A stretch of DNA of 64,000 nt from Clostridia bacterium (GTDB lineage Bacteria; Bacillota; Clostridia; Acetivibrionales; DSM-2933). Position 1 is the first letter of the stretch, and every line of letters starts with the position of its first letter. The stretch lies in the NCBI GenBank assembly GCA_026418275.1, contig JAOABQ010000091.1:1-64000 (forward strand). Direction: 5' to 3'. The position numbers were made by a program, and so were the translations under genes. The notes beneath the pieces are model-generated. The model did no database searches, was not told the DNA's origin, and was given only the letters and a program-made list of their open reading frames with translations. This document shows positions 34,578-49,993 of this stretch, one piece after another.

Positions 34578-34991
34578 ATGCTTGATGATATGGATATAAA
34601 AATACTGGCGCTTCTTCTAGAGAACGCAAGGTATCAATGGAAGGAGATCGGGGAGAAGGTTCACCTTACGGGGCAGGCAGTGGCTGCCAGAATTCGAAGG
34701 CTTGAAGATATGGGGGTCATAGAAGGATATACGGTAAAGCTAAATCCGGAAAAAACCGGATATGCGGTCACGGCGTTTATAAACGTATTTATGAAAAGTA
34801 ATGATCACTATGCTTTCCAGGATTTTTTAAAGAAATGTAAAGAAATTAACGAGGCACACCGAATAAGCGGAGGAGGCTGCTATTGGATTAAAGCCGGGGT
34901 CAAGAGCAATGATGAGCTTGGTTGTCTTCTGGATAAAATATTAAGATATGCCAATTATAGTATCAGCCTATCCATTGAAAAAATAAAATAA
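34578..34991 (+). CDS. Lrp/AsnC-family transcriptional regulator
   Basis: 137 residues. The N-terminal winged helix (about 1-60) has DMDIKILALLLENARYQWKE and LTGQAVAARIRRLEDMGVI, and the RAM/AsnC ligand domain follows (about 65-135), slightly short. Family members sense amino acids and form octamers; its targets are unknown. AAAGGAG precedes the ATG. It is divergent from the MBL gene across repeat B copy 4 and may regulate it. Confidence 0.85.
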   Translation: MLDDMDIKILALLLENARYQWKEIGEKVHLTGQAVAARIRRLEDMGVIEGYTVKLNPEKTGYAVTAFINVFMKSNDHYAFQDFLKKCKEINEAHRISGGGCYWIKAGVKSNDELGCLLDKILRYANYSISLSIEKIK

Positions 34992-35034
34992 ATATCCGTC
35001 TGCTAAATGGAACATCTTTTTTGTGTTCCGTGAT

Positions 35035-35664
35035 TCACATAGGGCTTTTATACTTCTTTTCCAGCCCTGCAAAAAAAATATCGATCATAATATCCAATTT
35101 TTCCTTTATAAATTTATGCTCAGGACTTTGCTGGCAAAAATGGATCAAGCCGCTTAAATAGGCAAGGAAGGCAGTAGCTATATCTTCGGGGCTTAAATCC
35201 TTTGGCTGGATCTCTCCTTCATCAACAGCAATTTGAAGGGCATAAACAATGAGCTTTAAGATTTTTTGTTTTCTCTCCTTTAATATGTCTATTATATCAG
35301 CAATTTTCGGCATGTCTTCCTGTGTATTATGAATAAGTCTATAAGTATGCAAAAACTTTTCATTACCCAGGATTTGATCCAATATATCGGTAGATATACG
35401 TTTTAACGTATCGAAAGTAGTTCCTTGATCTTCTATTTTACTTTGAACAACATCATTGATCATTGTATTCACTTCATTAATAAGGGCTGCAAATAAATTC
35501 TTCTTATTTTCAAAATGATGATAAACTGTAGCTCTTGTAGTATTTGCTGCTTTTGCAATTTCATTCAAGGTGGTTTCCCCATATCCTTTTGTACTAAAAA
35601 TCATTAGTGCGGCATCAAGTATTTTGTTTTTTGTAAATGCAGCTTCTTCAAAAGTTTTTTTCAT
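35035..35664 (-). CDS. TetR/AcrR-family transcriptional regulator
   Basis: 209 residues from ATG 35664, with AGGGGG 8 bases upstream; a GTG three codons earlier overlaps that site. The N-terminal TetR helix-turn-helix is AALMIFSTKGYGETTLNEIA...TRATVYHHFENKKNLFAAL; the C-terminal two-thirds is helical ligand-binding. TetR proteins usually repress a neighbouring gene; the divergent xanthine/uracil permease is the obvious candidate, but no operator was identified. Confidence 0.87.
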   Translation of the reverse strand: MKKTFEEAAFTKNKILDAALMIFSTKGYGETTLNEIAKAANTTRATVYHHFENKKNLFAALINEVNTMINDVVQSKIEDQGTTFDTLKRISTDILDQILGNEKFLHTYRLIHNTQEDMPKIADIIDILKERKQKILKLIVYALQIAVDEGEIQPKDLSPEDIATAFLAYLSGLIHFCQQSPEHKFIKEKLDIMIDIFFAGLEKKYKSPM

Positions 35665-35903
35665 GGTTATCACCCCCTAAGTTTAAATACTAGCGCGCAC
35701 GTTTGTAAAAGTCAATGGAAGACTTACCTATGACCGATAATGCATGATTAGGAATTAATAAAACACACTAAAATGATAGAGGTTGTTATTATGCCGGGTA
35801 ATGATTAAAATAAATAAAGGACCTATAGATAAGATAAATAAAATTATATAAACCAAGTAAATATGGAATAATAATAAAAAGGTTATATATGACAAACTTT
35901 AAT

Positions 35904-35911
35904 AGGAGGGG
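35904..35911 (+). promoter_or_regulatory. Strong ribosome-binding site with no canonical start behind it
   Basis: AGGAGGGG lies six bases upstream of GTT (35918) in the permease frame. The frame is open from TAG at 35903 onward. This decides that the true N-terminus is near 35918. Confidence 0.6.
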
Positions 35912-35995
35912 ATTACCGTTAAAAATTATATTGATGTAGAACAAAAGCTCCCTTTAATTAAGACAATTCCTCTAAGTCTGCAGCATCTTTTCGCT

Positions 35996-37207
35996 ATGGT
36001 GGGAGCGACCATTCTTGTTCCTATTATCACCGGCATGAGCCCCGCTATAGCACTTTTTTGCAGCGGAATAGGCACACTGCTTTACATTTTTTGTACAAAA
36101 GCAAAACTCCCGGCATATATTGGCTCCTCTTTTGCGTTTATAGGCCCAACACTTGTAGCAACTGCCAATTACGGAGCGGCAGGAATGCTGAGCGGAGTTA
36201 TTGCATCCGGTTTGGTGTATACCATTGTTGCGCTTATCATAAGTTATACTGGGATTGGCTGGATTAATAAAATTCTTCCGCCTGTTGTGGTGGGATCGGT
36301 AGTTTTGGTAATCGGGTTAGGCCTTGCCGGTGTTGCAATAGATTGGTCCGGACTTAGCCCAAAGCCAAGCGCTTCTGTGGCAGCAGCCCTTACCAGCATT
36401 CCACTGTGGGCATGGGTTACAGTTTCTGTGGTAACTTTGCTTGTAGGAATCCTGGGAAGTATGTTTTTTAGGGGATTTCTTGGTGTAATTCCCATACTGA
36501 TTGCCATGGTTGCAGGATATGGAGCAGCTTTGCTTTTTGGTGTTGTATCAAAAGAGACAGTAAATGCAATTGTTTCGGCACCTTTTTTTGCTATCCCTGA
36601 GTTTGTTTTCCCAAAATTCAACTGGGGTGCAGTGTTTTTAATGGCTCCTGTTGCATTTGTTACGCTGGCAGAGCATATTGGGCATGTGTATGTAACGAAC
36701 AATGTGGTGGGAAGAGATTTTACAAAAGATCCGGGGCTTCACAGATCGATTTTAGGTGATGGAGTTGCTACCATGTTTGCAGGATTTGTAGGAGGTCCCC
36801 CCAATACAACCTATGGTGAAAATATTGGTGTCATGGCAATTACAAGGGTTTACAGTGTATGGGTTATAGGCGTTGCAGGAGTTATTGCAGTACTTTTATC
36901 CTTTGTGGGACCGGTTGCTGTCATGATCAAGAATATGCCCTTGCCTGTAATGGGAGGAGTCAGCATCTTGCTTTTTGGAATTATTGCTTCTTCCGGATTT
37001 AGAGTTTTTGTGGAAGACAAAGTTGATTTCGGGTTAAAACGGAATTTAGTTATCGCGTCGGTCATTATTGTTATAGGGATTGGCGGTGCCGTATTAAAGT
37101 TTCATATGGGAGGGAGCGAAATAGAAATATCGGGTGTTGCATTAGCTACCCTGATAGGGATCATTTTAAATTTGATTTTACCGGAAAAGAGCAGGACTGA
37201 GGGTTGA
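35996..37207 (+). CDS. Uracil-xanthine permease (NCS2 family)
   Basis: 403 residues from the first canonical start, ATG 35996. About 12-13 membrane segments; family motifs include VGATILVPIITGMSPAIAL, the TLAEHIGH segment and GGPPNTTYGENIG (substrate site). The conserved N-terminus continues upstream in frame to 35918 (KNYIDVEQKLPL... and PLSLQHLFA, containing the family QH motif of TM1), preceded by AGGAGGGG. The expected start codon there is GTT. It may be a mutated start, or translation may use a non-standard codon; ATG 35996 has no ribosome site and would delete the QH motif. NCS2 proteins import purines or pyrimidines with protons. Divergent from the TetR gene. Confidence 0.85.
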   Translation: MVGATILVPIITGMSPAIALFCSGIGTLLYIFCTKAKLPAYIGSSFAFIGPTLVATANYGAAGMLSGVIASGLVYTIVALIISYTGIGWINKILPPVVVGSVVLVIGLGLAGVAIDWSGLSPKPSASVAAALTSIPLWAWVTVSVVTLLVGILGSMFFRGFLGVIPILIAMVAGYGAALLFGVVSKETVNAIVSAPFFAIPEFVFPKFNWGAVFLMAPVAFVTLAEHIGHVYVTNNVVGRDFTKDPGLHRSILGDGVATMFAGFVGGPPNTTYGENIGVMAITRVYSVWVIGVAGVIAVLLSFVGPVAVMIKNMPLPVMGGVSILLFGIIASSGFRVFVEDKVDFGLKRNLVIASVIIVIGIGGAVLKFHMGGSEIEISGVALATLIGIILNLILPEKSRTEG

Positions 37208-43639: not shown

Positions 43640-46033
43640 ATGTTCAAAAATTTAAAAAAATTAAGAGATTTCATAAGAAATATGAAAAATGATTCTGTGA
43701 TATCGGATCTTAGTAGATATAGATCAATAATTGAAAGGATCAATGGTTTTAACTTTGATAAGCTTAAGGAGGAAGAGTTGAAAGCAAAATCTTTTATTTT
43801 AATGAATAAGGCTCAAAATGGAATTTTCACCGATCTACTTCTGCCGGAAGCTTTTGCTCTAGTGAAGGAGACAGTAAAAAGACAGCTTGGAATTTGCCCT
43901 TATGATGTGCAGTTGTTAGCCGGGATAGCCATGCATCAAGGAAATATTGTCCAAATGCAGACGGGCGAGGGAAAGACTTTGGCGGCTGTATTTCCGGCCT
44001 ATTTAAACGCGCTTTCGGGAAAAGGTGTTCATATTCTTACATTTAACGATTACCTGGTCAAGCGGGATGCCGCGTGGATGGGCCCTATTTATGAGCTTCT
44101 TGGTTTAACGGTAGGGTATGTCCAAGAGGGAATGACGATAGAGGAGAGAAAAACTGCGTATAACTGTAGTATTACCTATTTAACTGCAAAGGAAGCAGGG
44201 TTTGATTTTTTGAGAGGGGCTATCTGTACAGAAAAGGAACAGCTGATACAGCGTCCGTTTCACTTTGCAGTGATTGATGAAGCCGATTCTATTTTGATTG
44301 ATGAAGCACGGATTCCTCTGGTTATAGCGGGAGAAACTCTGGAGAAAGAAGAACATCTTGAATTGGCAGACCGATTGGTGAACTCTCTTCAACCGGACAT
44401 TGATTTTGATACGGATGAACATTCGGAAAATGTATTTCTGACCGATCAAGGAATGGACCGTATTGAAAAACTGCTGGGTTGCGGTAATTTATATGCTCCT
44501 GAAAATATAGAATTGCTGACCAAACTCAATAATGCGTTGTATGCTAGGGTACTGCTTAAAAAGGATATAGACTATATTGTACGGGGAGACAGGATTAAGC
44601 TCATTGATCCGTTCACAGGCCGTATCGCAGCTAATAGGCATTGGCCTCACGGTTTGCAGGCAGCAGTGGAGACGAAAGAGGGAATTCAGTTTATATCCAG
44701 AGGAAAAATTCTGGAATCCATTACAATGCAGAGCTTTATAAGATTGTATCCCAGGGTATCCGGCATGACGGGAACTGCTGAAGCAGCGGCAAGGGAATTT
44801 GAGGGATTTTACGGGCTTAAGGTGGTTATCATACCGACACATAAGCCAAGCTGCCGGGAAGATCTTCACGATCTGGTTTTTACCCATGAGACTGTGAAGC
44901 TGAAATTTGTGGTAGATGAGGTCAAGCGGGTTCATGAAAAAGGACAGCCTGTTCTTATCGGTACCGGAAGTGTGGAAGAATCGGAGATGCTTGCAAAGGC
45001 ACTTGAAGAGGTGGGCGTCTTATGTAATGTATTGAACGCAAAAAACGATGAGGCAGAAGCAAAAATCATTGCAGATGCGGGACGGATCGGTGCCGTAACC
45101 GTTTCAACCAATATGGCCGGAAGGGGTGTTGATATCAAATTGGGTGGAGAAAAGGGCGATACCCAAAAACAGGTTGAAGAATTGGGAGGATTATATGTTA
45201 TCGGTACTACCCGTCATGAGAGCAGAAGAATCGATGACCAGCTGAGAGGCCGTGCCGGACGTCAGGGAGACCCCGGGAACACCCGCTTTTTCATAAGCTT
45301 GGAAGATCCGTTGATGGTAAAACATAAGATGCATGAGGCAATTCCTGAATTAGGCAAGATTTATAGGCAGGAAGGTCTGGTGGATGATCCTGTGATTGGG
45401 AAAAAAATTGCAAGTGCCCAGAGAAGGATTGAAGGCAATCATTTTGATATACGAATGAGCCTCTTTAAATATACATATACCATTGAAAAGCAGCGTCAGA
45501 TTATACATGGAATAAGGATGGATCTATTGCTGGATAAATCGGCTGCCGGTGATTTAAAGTACAAGGAGAATGTAAGGTTTAAAAGGTTATGCCGGCATGT
45601 AAGCGGTAGGGGATTGGAAAAAGCACAAAAACAAAGTGCCCTTTTTTTCCTCAATAAATACTGGTCGGATTACTTGAGATATATTGCGTCGGTGCAGGAA
45701 AGCATCTACCTGGTAAATATCGGAGGAAAAGCACCCTTGGATGAGTTTAATAGGATTGCAATTGCCGCCTATGATGAAATGTGGATAAAAATAAATGAAG
45801 ATATACTGTATCTTCTTTCAACGGCTGAAATAACAGATGAGGGGATTGATCTGGAAAGAGAAGGCTTAAAAGGGCCCTCTGCTGCCTGGACCTACCTTGT
45901 GAAGGATAACACTGAGCAGTTGGGGATATGCGAAATCTGTAGAGATCCTATTGCTGCAGCCGTAAGTGGGCCGCTGCTTGTAACGTTGGCAGTTTACAAC
46001 CGGTTTATAAAGAAATCAAAGGTGATAAAATAA
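43640..46033 (+). CDS. SecA-like ATPase paralogue
   Basis: 797 residues. SecA motor features are MQTGEGKT (106-113), LTFNDYLVKRDA, VIDEADSILIDEARIPL (about 211-227), the preprotein cross-linking region, VSGMTGTA, TNMAGRGVDI and RGRAGRQGD. It is shorter than housekeeping SecA (about 840-900 residues) and lacks the CxCxSGxxxxxCH C-terminal zinc motif; instead it ends in CEICRDPIAAAVSGPLLVTL with a CxxC and a hydrophobic stretch. This suggests a SecA2-like accessory motor. No SecY2 or glycosylation genes are nearby. AAGGAGG precedes the ATG. Confidence 0.85.
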   Translation: MFKNLKKLRDFIRNMKNDSVISDLSRYRSIIERINGFNFDKLKEEELKAKSFILMNKAQNGIFTDLLLPEAFALVKETVKRQLGICPYDVQLLAGIAMHQGNIVQMQTGEGKTLAAVFPAYLNALSGKGVHILTFNDYLVKRDAAWMGPIYELLGLTVGYVQEGMTIEERKTAYNCSITYLTAKEAGFDFLRGAICTEKEQLIQRPFHFAVIDEADSILIDEARIPLVIAGETLEKEEHLELADRLVNSLQPDIDFDTDEHSENVFLTDQGMDRIEKLLGCGNLYAPENIELLTKLNNALYARVLLKKDIDYIVRGDRIKLIDPFTGRIAANRHWPHGLQAAVETKEGIQFISRGKILESITMQSFIRLYPRVSGMTGTAEAAAREFEGFYGLKVVIIPTHKPSCREDLHDLVFTHETVKLKFVVDEVKRVHEKGQPVLIGTGSVEESEMLAKALEEVGVLCNVLNAKNDEAEAKIIADAGRIGAVTVSTNMAGRGVDIKLGGEKGDTQKQVEELGGLYVIGTTRHESRRIDDQLRGRAGRQGDPGNTRFFISLEDPLMVKHKMHEAIPELGKIYRQEGLVDDPVIGKKIASAQRRIEGNHFDIRMSLFKYTYTIEKQRQIIHGIRMDLLLDKSAAGDLKYKENVRFKRLCRHVSGRGLEKAQKQSALFFLNKYWSDYLRYIASVQESIYLVNIGGKAPLDEFNRIAIAAYDEMWIKINEDILYLLSTAEITDEGIDLEREGLKGPSAAWTYLVKDNTEQLGICEICRDPIAAAVSGPLLVTLAVYNRFIKKSKVIK

Positions 46034-46127: not shown

Positions 46128-47537
46128 CTATGCCCCGTACTTGGCCATTGCGATAAATCTTAAGATAAACAGTACTGCAAGGATATAGACTAAGGGGTGA
46201 ACGGTTTTACCTTTACCTGTAGCAATTTTCACGATAGGATAAACGATCAAACCTGAAGCGATGCCGTTTGCAATACTAAAGGTAAATGGCATCATGACCA
46301 CAGTGAGGAACGCAGGAAGTGCTTCGGTAAAGTCATCAAAATTGATATGCCTTAAAGCACCCATCATAAATACACCTACAATAATAAGGGCGGGAGCGGT
46401 TGCTTCGGATGGAACCAGACCTGCTACAGGAGCAAAAAACAAAGCAAGTAAGAAGAGAATCGATGTAACCACTGAGGTTAAACCCGTTCTTCCTCCTTCC
46501 ATAACCCCTGAAGCACTTTCCACATAGGTAACAACGGTGGATGTACCCAATACGGCCCCAGTAGTGGTTGCGATGGAATCACTGAGGAGTGCTTTGTTGA
46601 TTCTGGGGAGCTTTCCTTCCTTATCCAGCATACCTGCCTTACTTCCTGTACCGATAAGAGTACCGATGGTATCAAACAGATCTACAAGTGTAAAAGAAAG
46701 AACGATGGCTGCAATCGTAACCAGTGTACTGAATAAATTTGCATTATCCCCAAGTTTTAAAAGACCGCTAAAGTCAAACTGCCAGAATGTCGGTGAAATA
46801 CTTGGAGGAGCAGATACAACTGTAAAACCCTTAGGGATGGAGATGATGTCGGTAACAATACCGGCAACGGTAGTAATAAATATTCCGATTAACATGGAAC
46901 CTTTCACGTTTTTGGCTACCAGCAAACCGGTAATGATAAGACCGAAAATAGCAAGCAAGGTCTTAGGAGACGTAAGATTACCGAATGCGATAATGGTGGA
47001 AGGGTTTCCTGCCACAATTCCCGCATTTTTAAACCCTATAAGCGCAATAAAAAGCCCGATGCCTCCGCTGACCGCATACTTCAAAGTCATTGGGATGGCT
47101 TTGACTATGGATTCTCTTAGCCTGGTGATTGTAATGATAATAAAAATAATTCCGGAAATAAAAACCGCAGTCAATGCCTGCTGCCATGTATATCCCATTC
47201 CCAATACAACGGTAAAGGTAAAGAAGGCATTTAAACCCATTCCCGGAGCTTGTGCAAAAGGGTAATTGGCGTAAAGTCCCATAATGAGTGTCCCTATTGC
47301 TGCGGAAAGACATGTAGCTACCAGAACCGCACCTACCACAGGATCGTTGAAAGCATTGAATTGGGCGGCTTTATCCCCTAAAGCACCCGAAGCGTTCATC
47401 CCTGCCATTTTTAAAATATCCGGATTGACAAATATGATGTAGGCCATAGTAATAAACGTGGTGATACCTGCGATGACTTCTGTCCTTACTGTAGTGTTGT
47501 TTTCCTTCAATTTGAAGAATTTTTGTAAGAAGTTCAT
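46128..47537 (-). CDS. NCS2-family purine permease (AzgA/PbuG type)
   Basis: 469 residues, about 12-13 membrane segments. Family motifs: EVIAGITTFITMAYIIFVNP, QAPGMGLNAFFTFTVV, ITRLRESIVKAIP, LVDLFDTIGTLIGTGSKAG and GTSTVVTYVESASGVMEGGRTGLT. AzgA-type proteins import adenine, guanine or hypoxanthine with protons. The ribosome site GGAGAG precedes the ATG. The 290-base leader (47538-47831) contains a hairpin (GGTAAAAA/TTTTTACC, about 47680-47720). I looked for purine riboswitch core motifs there and did not find them. Confidence 0.9.
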   Translation of the reverse strand: MNFLQKFFKLKENNTTVRTEVIAGITTFITMAYIIFVNPDILKMAGMNASGALGDKAAQFNAFNDPVVGAVLVATCLSAAIGTLIMGLYANYPFAQAPGMGLNAFFTFTVVLGMGYTWQQALTAVFISGIIFIIITITRLRESIVKAIPMTLKYAVSGGIGLFIALIGFKNAGIVAGNPSTIIAFGNLTSPKTLLAIFGLIITGLLVAKNVKGSMLIGIFITTVAGIVTDIISIPKGFTVVSAPPSISPTFWQFDFSGLLKLGDNANLFSTLVTIAAIVLSFTLVDLFDTIGTLIGTGSKAGMLDKEGKLPRINKALLSDSIATTTGAVLGTSTVVTYVESASGVMEGGRTGLTSVVTSILFLLALFFAPVAGLVPSEATAPALIIVGVFMMGALRHINFDDFTEALPAFLTVVMMPFTFSIANGIASGLIVYPIVKIATGKGKTVHPLVYILAVLFILRFIAMAKYGA

Positions 47538-48724: not shown

Positions 48725-49993
48725 ATGGAAAAAAAACTATATCGAAGGATGGTAAAAGGTCTATTGGTTTGCCTGATATTTTTGAATATTACAGGATGCA
48801 GCGGGAATAGTGAGCCAGTGAAGATCCAGGGATACTCAAGCGTAAACCAGGTAAACAATTCGTACCCTATGAGCTTTTCATCAGATAAGCAGTTTGCTTT
48901 TAATTTGCTGGATAAATTGTTAGAAGAGGAAAAGGGCAAGAACTTTTTTATCTCACCCGCAAGTATCTTTCTAGCCCTTTCCATGGTTTATAATGCTTCG
49001 GATGGCGAGACAAAAAAGGAAATGGAGAAAGCATTGGAACTTCAAGGAGTTACTTTGGAAAAGCTAAATGGCTATTGTCAGAGCATTATAAAAAGTTCAA
49101 CCAGGGAAGAAGAGGGAGCCCGGCTGTCCATTGCAAATTCCATTTGGACCGAAAACGGAATTCAATTGAGCGAAGAATTCATTAAAAAAATGAAGGATTT
49201 TTACGCGTCTGAAGTGAATTCCTTAGACTTTGAAGATCCGAAAGCCGTTGATAAAATCAATGATTGGGTAAATGACAAGACAAACCAAAAGATTCCTAAG
49301 ATTTTAAATAACTTACCCTCTGCCGCTATGATGGTTCTATTAAATGCCATATATTTTAAAGGGTTTTGGGAACGGGATTTCGATAAAGGTAAAACAATGG
49401 ATGAGATGTTTAATTTGCCGGATCATACACAAAAAAGCATACCCATGATGAGTCAGGAGGGATCATATGCCTACGCGGAAGGTGAAAAATTCAGGGTGCT
49501 GAGTCTGCCTTATATCAATAAAAGTGCCCAGATGCTAATATTTTTACCGGATAAGGAGTCCAGCCTCAATGAATTTTTAACGGATTTTAAATTTGAGGAT
49601 TGGAAAAAATACAGAAATATATCCACCATTCGGGAAGGAAAGATTAAAATTCCCCGCTTCAGGATGGAATACGATATAGAATTAAATGATATACTTACCA
49701 ATTTAGGTATGGAAAAAGCGTTTAATCCGAAGCAGGCGGATTTCTCAAAACTGTTATCCGACAAATATAAAGGAAATCCAATATGGCTAGACAAGGTTAT
49801 ACATAAAACATATGTAAATGTCAATGAAGAAGGAACCGAAGCGGCAGGAGTTACAGGTGCAGTCATGTGTGGTGGTCTTATGGAAATTAAGCCCGAGAAA
49901 TTTGAGTTTATTGCGGACCGCCCCTTTTTCTTTGTGATTCATGATATCGGAAGCGATTTGATTCTTTTTTTGGGAGCAGTAAATGAGCCGTAA
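48725..49993 (+). CDS. Serpin (serine protease inhibitor) lipoprotein
   Basis: 422 residues. Lipobox ITGC (Cys about 25) anchors the protein to the outer membrane face. Serpin features: NFFISPASIFLALSMVYNAS, NAIYFKGFWERDF, PYINKSAQMLIFLP, then the reactive-centre hinge NEEGTEAAGVTGAVM and DRPFFFVIHD. The loop between the hinge and DRPF is about five residues longer than in antitrypsin, so the P1 residue (within MCGGLMEIK) cannot be set exactly. Inhibition of an external serine protease is expected. GGGAGG precedes the ATG. The secreted papain-kelch protease of this window is a different class. Confidence 0.9.
   Translation: MEKKLYRRMVKGLLVCLIFLNITGCSGNSEPVKIQGYSSVNQVNNSYPMSFSSDKQFAFNLLDKLLEEEKGKNFFISPASIFLALSMVYNASDGETKKEMEKALELQGVTLEKLNGYCQSIIKSSTREEEGARLSIANSIWTENGIQLSEEFIKKMKDFYASEVNSLDFEDPKAVDKINDWVNDKTNQKIPKILNNLPSAAMMVLLNAIYFKGFWERDFDKGKTMDEMFNLPDHTQKSIPMMSQEGSYAYAEGEKFRVLSLPYINKSAQMLIFLPDKESSLNEFLTDFKFEDWKKYRNISTIREGKIKIPRFRMEYDIELNDILTNLGMEKAFNPKQADFSKLLSDKYKGNPIWLDKVIHKTYVNVNEEGTEAAGVTGAVMCGGLMEIKPEKFEFIADRPFFFVIHDIGSDLILFLGAVNEP

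Follow-up and report, generated by a model that had tools for sequence, protein, structure and literature searches.

The Clostridia bacterium studied here carries a gene that, judged by its sequence, encodes a UraA-type uracil permease of the NCS2 family with predicted transport activity, and in this gene the codon GTT occupies the position of the initiator. We assign a probability of about one half to the reading that this is a working uracil permease gene with a genuine but weak start at GTT. The gene lies in a stretch of 64,000 nucleotides, called here the window (positions 1 to 64,000 of contig JAOABQ010000091.1, assembly GCA_026418275.1).

The start region of the permease frame

The Shine-Dalgarno (SD) site of the permease gene is AGGAGGGG at 35904-35911 (+). 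It is followed by ATTACC (35912-35917) and by GTT (35918-35920, +), which the alignment of orthologues places at the initiator position; the next codons are AAA AAT TAT ATT GAT. The frame is open for 429 codons from GTT 35918 to the stop TGA at 37205-37207, and the uraA-like gene thus occupies 35918-37207 (+). Direct reading of the letters agrees in this with the preliminary description, which had reported a perfect SD site, six bases and then GTT in the permease frame. Two in-frame stops, TAA 35900 and TAG 35903, are located just 5' of the SD site, so that there is no upstream in-frame start. The earliest in-frame ATG, GTG or TTG is the ATG at 35996-35998 (+), and no canonical codon up to codon 90 is preceded by an SD match reaching 4 bases.

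The distance from the end of AGGAGG to GTT is 8 nt, and it ranges from 5 to 9 nt in the scored orthologues that possess AGGAGG. This hexamer is present 32 times in the window, both strands considered. Behind seven of these 32 sites, at 4-10 nt, stands a canonical start whose ORF has 100 codons or more; among the others, the permease site is the only one from which an open frame of such a length begins no further than 10 codons from an in-frame stop. The arrangement of AGGAGG and GTT is not due to chance, and homology independently fixes the position of the start.

Two ATT codons were considered as starts and rejected: ATT 35912 is too close to AGGAGG (2 nt) and ATT 35930 too far from it (20 nt). 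A short ORF (35889-35939, +; ATG 35889, 16 codons and TAG) overlaps both the SD site and the GTT in a frame different from that of the permease. It is preceded by a weak AAGG and is probably due to chance. RNA structure masking the SD site was considered and rejected: the predicted folding around the start is like that of shuffled sequences (z 0.41), and 133 of 200 shuffles give a fold as good or better. Rfam elements were absent from 35600-36000 at E values up to 10 and from the whole window at the gathering score, and the number of promoter and terminator predictions equals that in shuffles. A TwoAYGGAY RNA motif (RF01731) was seen in another genome, beyond the permease gene of Clostridium sp. 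DSM 17811 and on the opposite strand (L041:4697-4850, -).

Identity, orthologues and history of the permease

The assignment to NCS2 made in the preliminary description is well founded. From codon 2 on, the protein scores 496.6 bits with NF007995, the NCBIfam profile for uracil permease (cut-off 477), and 331 bits with PF00860. The structure of E. coli UraA (3qe7) is matched with an E value of 4.8e-117, aligned from query residue 4, and this alignment contains the conserved core segments AEHxGH and NTTYGENIGVMAITRVYS, which we take to bind the substrate. The genome holds no second match to the permease protein, and the only other PF00860 member found in it is encoded in the same window, at 46260-47480 (-).

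Start codons were compared in two sets of orthologues. A scan of genome contigs yielded 19 orthologues with 67-75% identity (18 Clostridium records and one Bacillota MAG), and all 19 have ATG exactly at the position of the GTT. The second set comes from the family of G328, in which 206 genomes were searched and 73 gave a match below E 1e-150; all 73 starts were read. At the codon in question, 67 of the 73 have ATG, two have TTG (L128 and L150) and one has GTG (L110), while in the remaining three (L136, L162 and L163) an ATG is found two to five codons upstream. Every orthologue in both sets thus has a canonical start at the position of the GTT or shortly upstream of it, which upholds the claim that GTT stands in place of a start codon. 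Neither the 19 nor the 73 orthologues, the latter from a family different from that of the host, include a GTT start; since some species occur in both sets, the two counts are not independent. Among 28 more distant homologues (L002-L030 without L025), 26 start with ATG and two with TTG, but the rule applied to them admitted canonical starts alone and this count is therefore no test for GTT.

As far as seen, the GTT appears to be private to this genome. The start codon drifts in the family, as GTG or TTG is found at the same codon in three of the 73 orthologues. The ancestral start codon was most likely ATG, and GTG is a plausible intermediate between ATG and GTT. Three features are combined in the window gene: a non-canonical codon at the homologous start, a well-spaced SD site and the lack of a usable canonical start. 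This combination was not seen in related species among the 19 and 73 orthologues.

The permease ORF contains neither an internal stop nor a frameshift. The window protein keeps 166 of the 167 columns that do not vary among the other 25 orthologues of the alignment. In this test, run on the 25 orthologues and the window protein, 12 of the 25 break no column, six break one and seven break 2-9, and rows with close sisters score low by construction. The dN between the permease and four orthologues is 0.18-0.21; dS is saturated and not computable. The GC3 of the gene is 0.352; that of 21 other, hand-picked genes of the window averages 0.41 (range 0.28-0.46), and that of seven Clostridium-group orthologues lies at 0.12-0.22. 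Its codon usage correlates at 0.93 with that of the 21 window genes and at 0.77 with that of five Clostridium orthologues. This host-like codon usage reflects a long residence in a host of such composition.

In a tree of 54 rows, the window permease groups with 25 Clostridium-type orthologues in a set of 26 rows (support 98/98), and homologues from its own order (about 50% identity) stand apart from this set. Its sister in the tree is L035 (92/92), although the placement is not firm; the program that built the tree flags long branches meeting elsewhere in it. The rows omitted were L001, L050 and L051 (own genome), L025 (without a canonical start in its stretch), and L052 and L053, whose proteins are identical to those of L031 and L046. 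The gene has probably been exchanged between lineages and since adjusted to its present host. Conservation and codon usage together argue against an old pseudogene, and they would be compatible with a very recent loss. Conservation reflects past selection and does not date the change of the start codon.

Leader, neighbourhood and initiation in the host

No PyrR-box-like sequence with up to three mismatches to the consensus was detected in 34878-36310, and the leader of the permease (35674-35917) is devoid of such a sequence. A similar pattern is found beside the SD site in 44 of the 73 family orthologues. The host genome encodes a PyrR-family protein scoring above the cut-off, and the box pattern has three matches in it against one for the reversed control. 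Near one of these three (L098), inspection by eye revealed no listed ORF resembling a pyrimidine gene. That the weak start stands in for a lost PyrR control of the permease is only a possibility.

Divergently from the permease runs a gene for a TetR-family regulator (35035-35664, -; PF00440, E 2.4e-18). Its first listed start is GTG 35673; ATG 35664 is preferred on account of the site GGGGGTGAT and is the likely start. The imperfect palindrome in front of this gene (35682-35709, inverted repeat I1, 76% complementary) is a possible operator. With a GC3 of 0.281, lower than in any other of the 21 compared genes of the window, the TetR gene is possibly a separate acquisition. Elsewhere in the window, 48725-49993 encodes a bacterial serpin of nearly full family length (PF00079, E 7.2e-114), and 43640-46033 encodes a SecA-like protein of 797 residues, possibly a second SecA.

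Three infC genes, coding for initiation factor 3 (IF3), are present in the host genome (L063, G000:C49:104984-105487, -; L064, G000:C12:25263-25763, +; L065, G000:C74:44746-45240, +), and each of them has an ATT 8-9 nt behind GGAGG. In L064 and L065 there is also an in-frame ATG that overlaps the SD site; the ATT seems the likelier start in both. In a set of 60 genomes of relatives, 22 have at least two IF3 matches and two, the host included, have three.

A further candidate is the gene for RNase Y (L170:8868-10461, +, on C9; TIGR03319, 779.9 bits), a protein that matters to the cell. Behind its SD site AGAGGAGGTG, which contains GGAGG, are GTT 8878 at 5 nt and ATT 8881 at 8 nt, and the nearest canonical codon is an in-frame GTG (8872) that overlaps the SD site. 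Judged by these positions, RNase Y probably starts at one of the two non-canonical codons, ATT being likelier than GTT, and it may be a second case of a GTT start in this genome. The ORFs located 3' of it presumably encode YmdB and SpoVS.

A further scan of start codons covered a sample of the host genome (465,758 bases, about 8%). Its 289 non-overlapping ORFs of 150 codons or more include 275 with a canonical start candidate that has at least 4 matching SD bases in front of it (best candidates: 206 ATG, 41 TTG and 28 GTG) and 14 that lack such a candidate. In 11 ORFs an SD match of at least 6 bases precedes a non-canonical codon and every canonical one has fewer than 5. Eight of these 11 were inspected: in infC (C49), RNase Y (C9) and the permease the non-canonical codon is well placed behind the SD site, and the starts of the other five were judged ordinary or unclear. 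Of the two infC copies in the sample the scan recovered the one on C49 and missed that on C74. An altered initiator tRNA found no favour, as the sole match to a pattern with open anticodon and exact stem bases, which would miss changed stems, has the ordinary CAT. For the anti-SD sequence, no 16S rRNA match was obtained in the draft genome. If the readings of infC and RNase Y hold, non-canonical starts behind strong SD sites would work in this host.

Readings of the GTT codon and comparison with known systems

In the preferred reading, the long AGGAGGGG site would hold the 30S subunit and GUU would accept the ordinary fMet-tRNA (anticodon CAU), position one forming a G-U pair and position three a mismatch. 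The protein would then begin with fMet-Lys-Asn-Tyr-Ile-Asp-Val and be made at a reduced rate, a rate that IF3 should limit. We infer the initiation on GTT, as well as its strength and its response to IF3, to which it is probably sensitive. The location of GTT at the start position of the orthologues and the matching SD spacing both speak for a real start, as does the fact that the genome has a single match to the permease protein. Several observations count against it: the codon is one base from a normal GTG, none of the 19 or the 73 orthologues has GTT, the RNA around the start folds no differently from shuffles, and the other non-canonical starts of the genome are proposed from position, with rival in-frame codons in two infC genes (ATG) and in RNase Y (GTG).

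A start-codon mutation, a non-standard start and a sequencing error were the three options offered in the preliminary description. They are not fully separable, although the weight shifts towards a real, weak, non-standard start because of the conservation of the gene, its host-like codons, the further non-canonical starts that probably occur elsewhere in this genome, and the GTC and GTT starts of sigR described below.

An error of sequencing, assembly or consensus, with a canonical codon in reality and an ordinary gene, is unlikely but deserves serious attention. GTT and GTG differ in a single base call, the draft genome consists of 115 contigs with 5.83% contamination, and an exact 24-base probe of the region found no match in viral contigs. 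If this were the case, one call would have turned a normal gene into an apparent oddity. However, the ATG of 67 of the 73 family orthologues is two substitutions away from GTT, so that one error suffices only if the true codon is a neighbour such as GTG, and the remainder of the ORF is as clean and as conserved as described above.

Rather unlikely, though likewise a serious rival, is a recent mutation of the start codon that has left the permease nearly silent in this strain, either as a young pseudogene or as a strong hypomorph. A start at GTT should be far weaker than one at ATG, GTG or TTG. A cell able to synthesise its own pyrimidines may not need a uracil permease, and the absence of GTT from every orthologue examined also fits such a mutation. 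The gene shows, however, no further lesion, strong past purifying selection and an intact SD site, and for these reasons the mutation would have to be very recent.

We regard as quite improbable a more ambitious version, in which the permease, devoid of a PyrR-box-like leader, would in this lineage use a fixed GTT start, gated by IF3, to throttle the uptake of uracil. This would be a regulatory GTT outside Streptomyces, in a genome that has three IF3 genes and, with RNase Y (ATT or GTT), probably one more non-canonical start.

Entry from the short ORF at ATG 35889, through a frameshift near TTAAAAA or with a miscalled indel in the A-run hiding a fused frame, is very improbable. The short ORF does overlap the start and the A-run directly follows the GTT, but the SD of ATG 35889 is weak, no proper slippery heptamer is seen by eye, the N-terminus of the product would be absent from the orthologues and the perfect SD site at the orthologous position would be left as a coincidence. 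A start at ATG 35996, the first canonical in-frame codon and the choice of an annotator limited to ATG, GTG and TTG, is largely refuted by homology and by the NF007995 cut-off and is scarcely credible: as the preliminary description had argued, it has no SD site and would cost the protein its family-defining N-terminus (26 residues including PLSLQHLFA; 451.9 bits, below 477), and none of the 19 and 73 orthologues begins there.

Gene callers are usually limited to ATG, GTG and TTG, and starts of this type are consequently misannotated or their genes called pseudogenes. If true, a GTT start occurring naturally in the gene of a metabolic transporter would extend a very short list, and the three IF3 genes of the host would make start-codon fidelity a direct question in this bacterium. 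All 64 codons have reportedly been measured in E. coli (Hecht 2017).

Work on Streptomyces coelicolor sigR reports an experimentally demonstrated GTC start behind AGGAGGTG that is repressed by IF3 (PMC5472188). At this position, 32 of 34 Streptomyces have GTC and two (S. griseoflavus and S. griseorubens) have GTT, the latter inferred as a start; according to the same paper, annotators misplace starts of this type, infC starts with ATT in E. coli and with ATC in Streptomyces, and IF3 is termed essential (PMC5472188). Another report states that strong SD sites are more frequent in genes with GUG or UUG starts (PMC5622118). In the literature searched, as far as its text was accessible, the proposal for the two Streptomyces sigR genes is the only one of a bacterial GTT start. 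Besides the sigR paper, the matches to 'GTT start codon' concern mitochondrial genomes, and the accessible portions of PMC11445065, PMC6397469 and PMC11497404 contain nothing on GTT.

The permease and Streptomyces sigR share a start of the type GT-pyrimidine behind a very long SD site (AGGAGGGG in the permease, AGGAGGTG in sigR). However, while the GTC of sigR has been proved at the bench, the GTT of the permease belongs to a transporter gene, has been seen in one genome and is known from its sequence. The ATT of infC, of which three copies seem to be present in the host, is likewise a non-canonical start behind a strong SD site, but it is ancient and belongs to an autoregulatory loop, whereas the GTT of the permease looks recent and is associated with no known loop. 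With UraA of E. coli (PDB 3qe7, 5xls and 8omz), a member of the same NCS2 family, the permease has PLSLQHLFAM and NTTYGENIGVMAITRVYS in common, and the two differ only in the start codon and probably in regulation.
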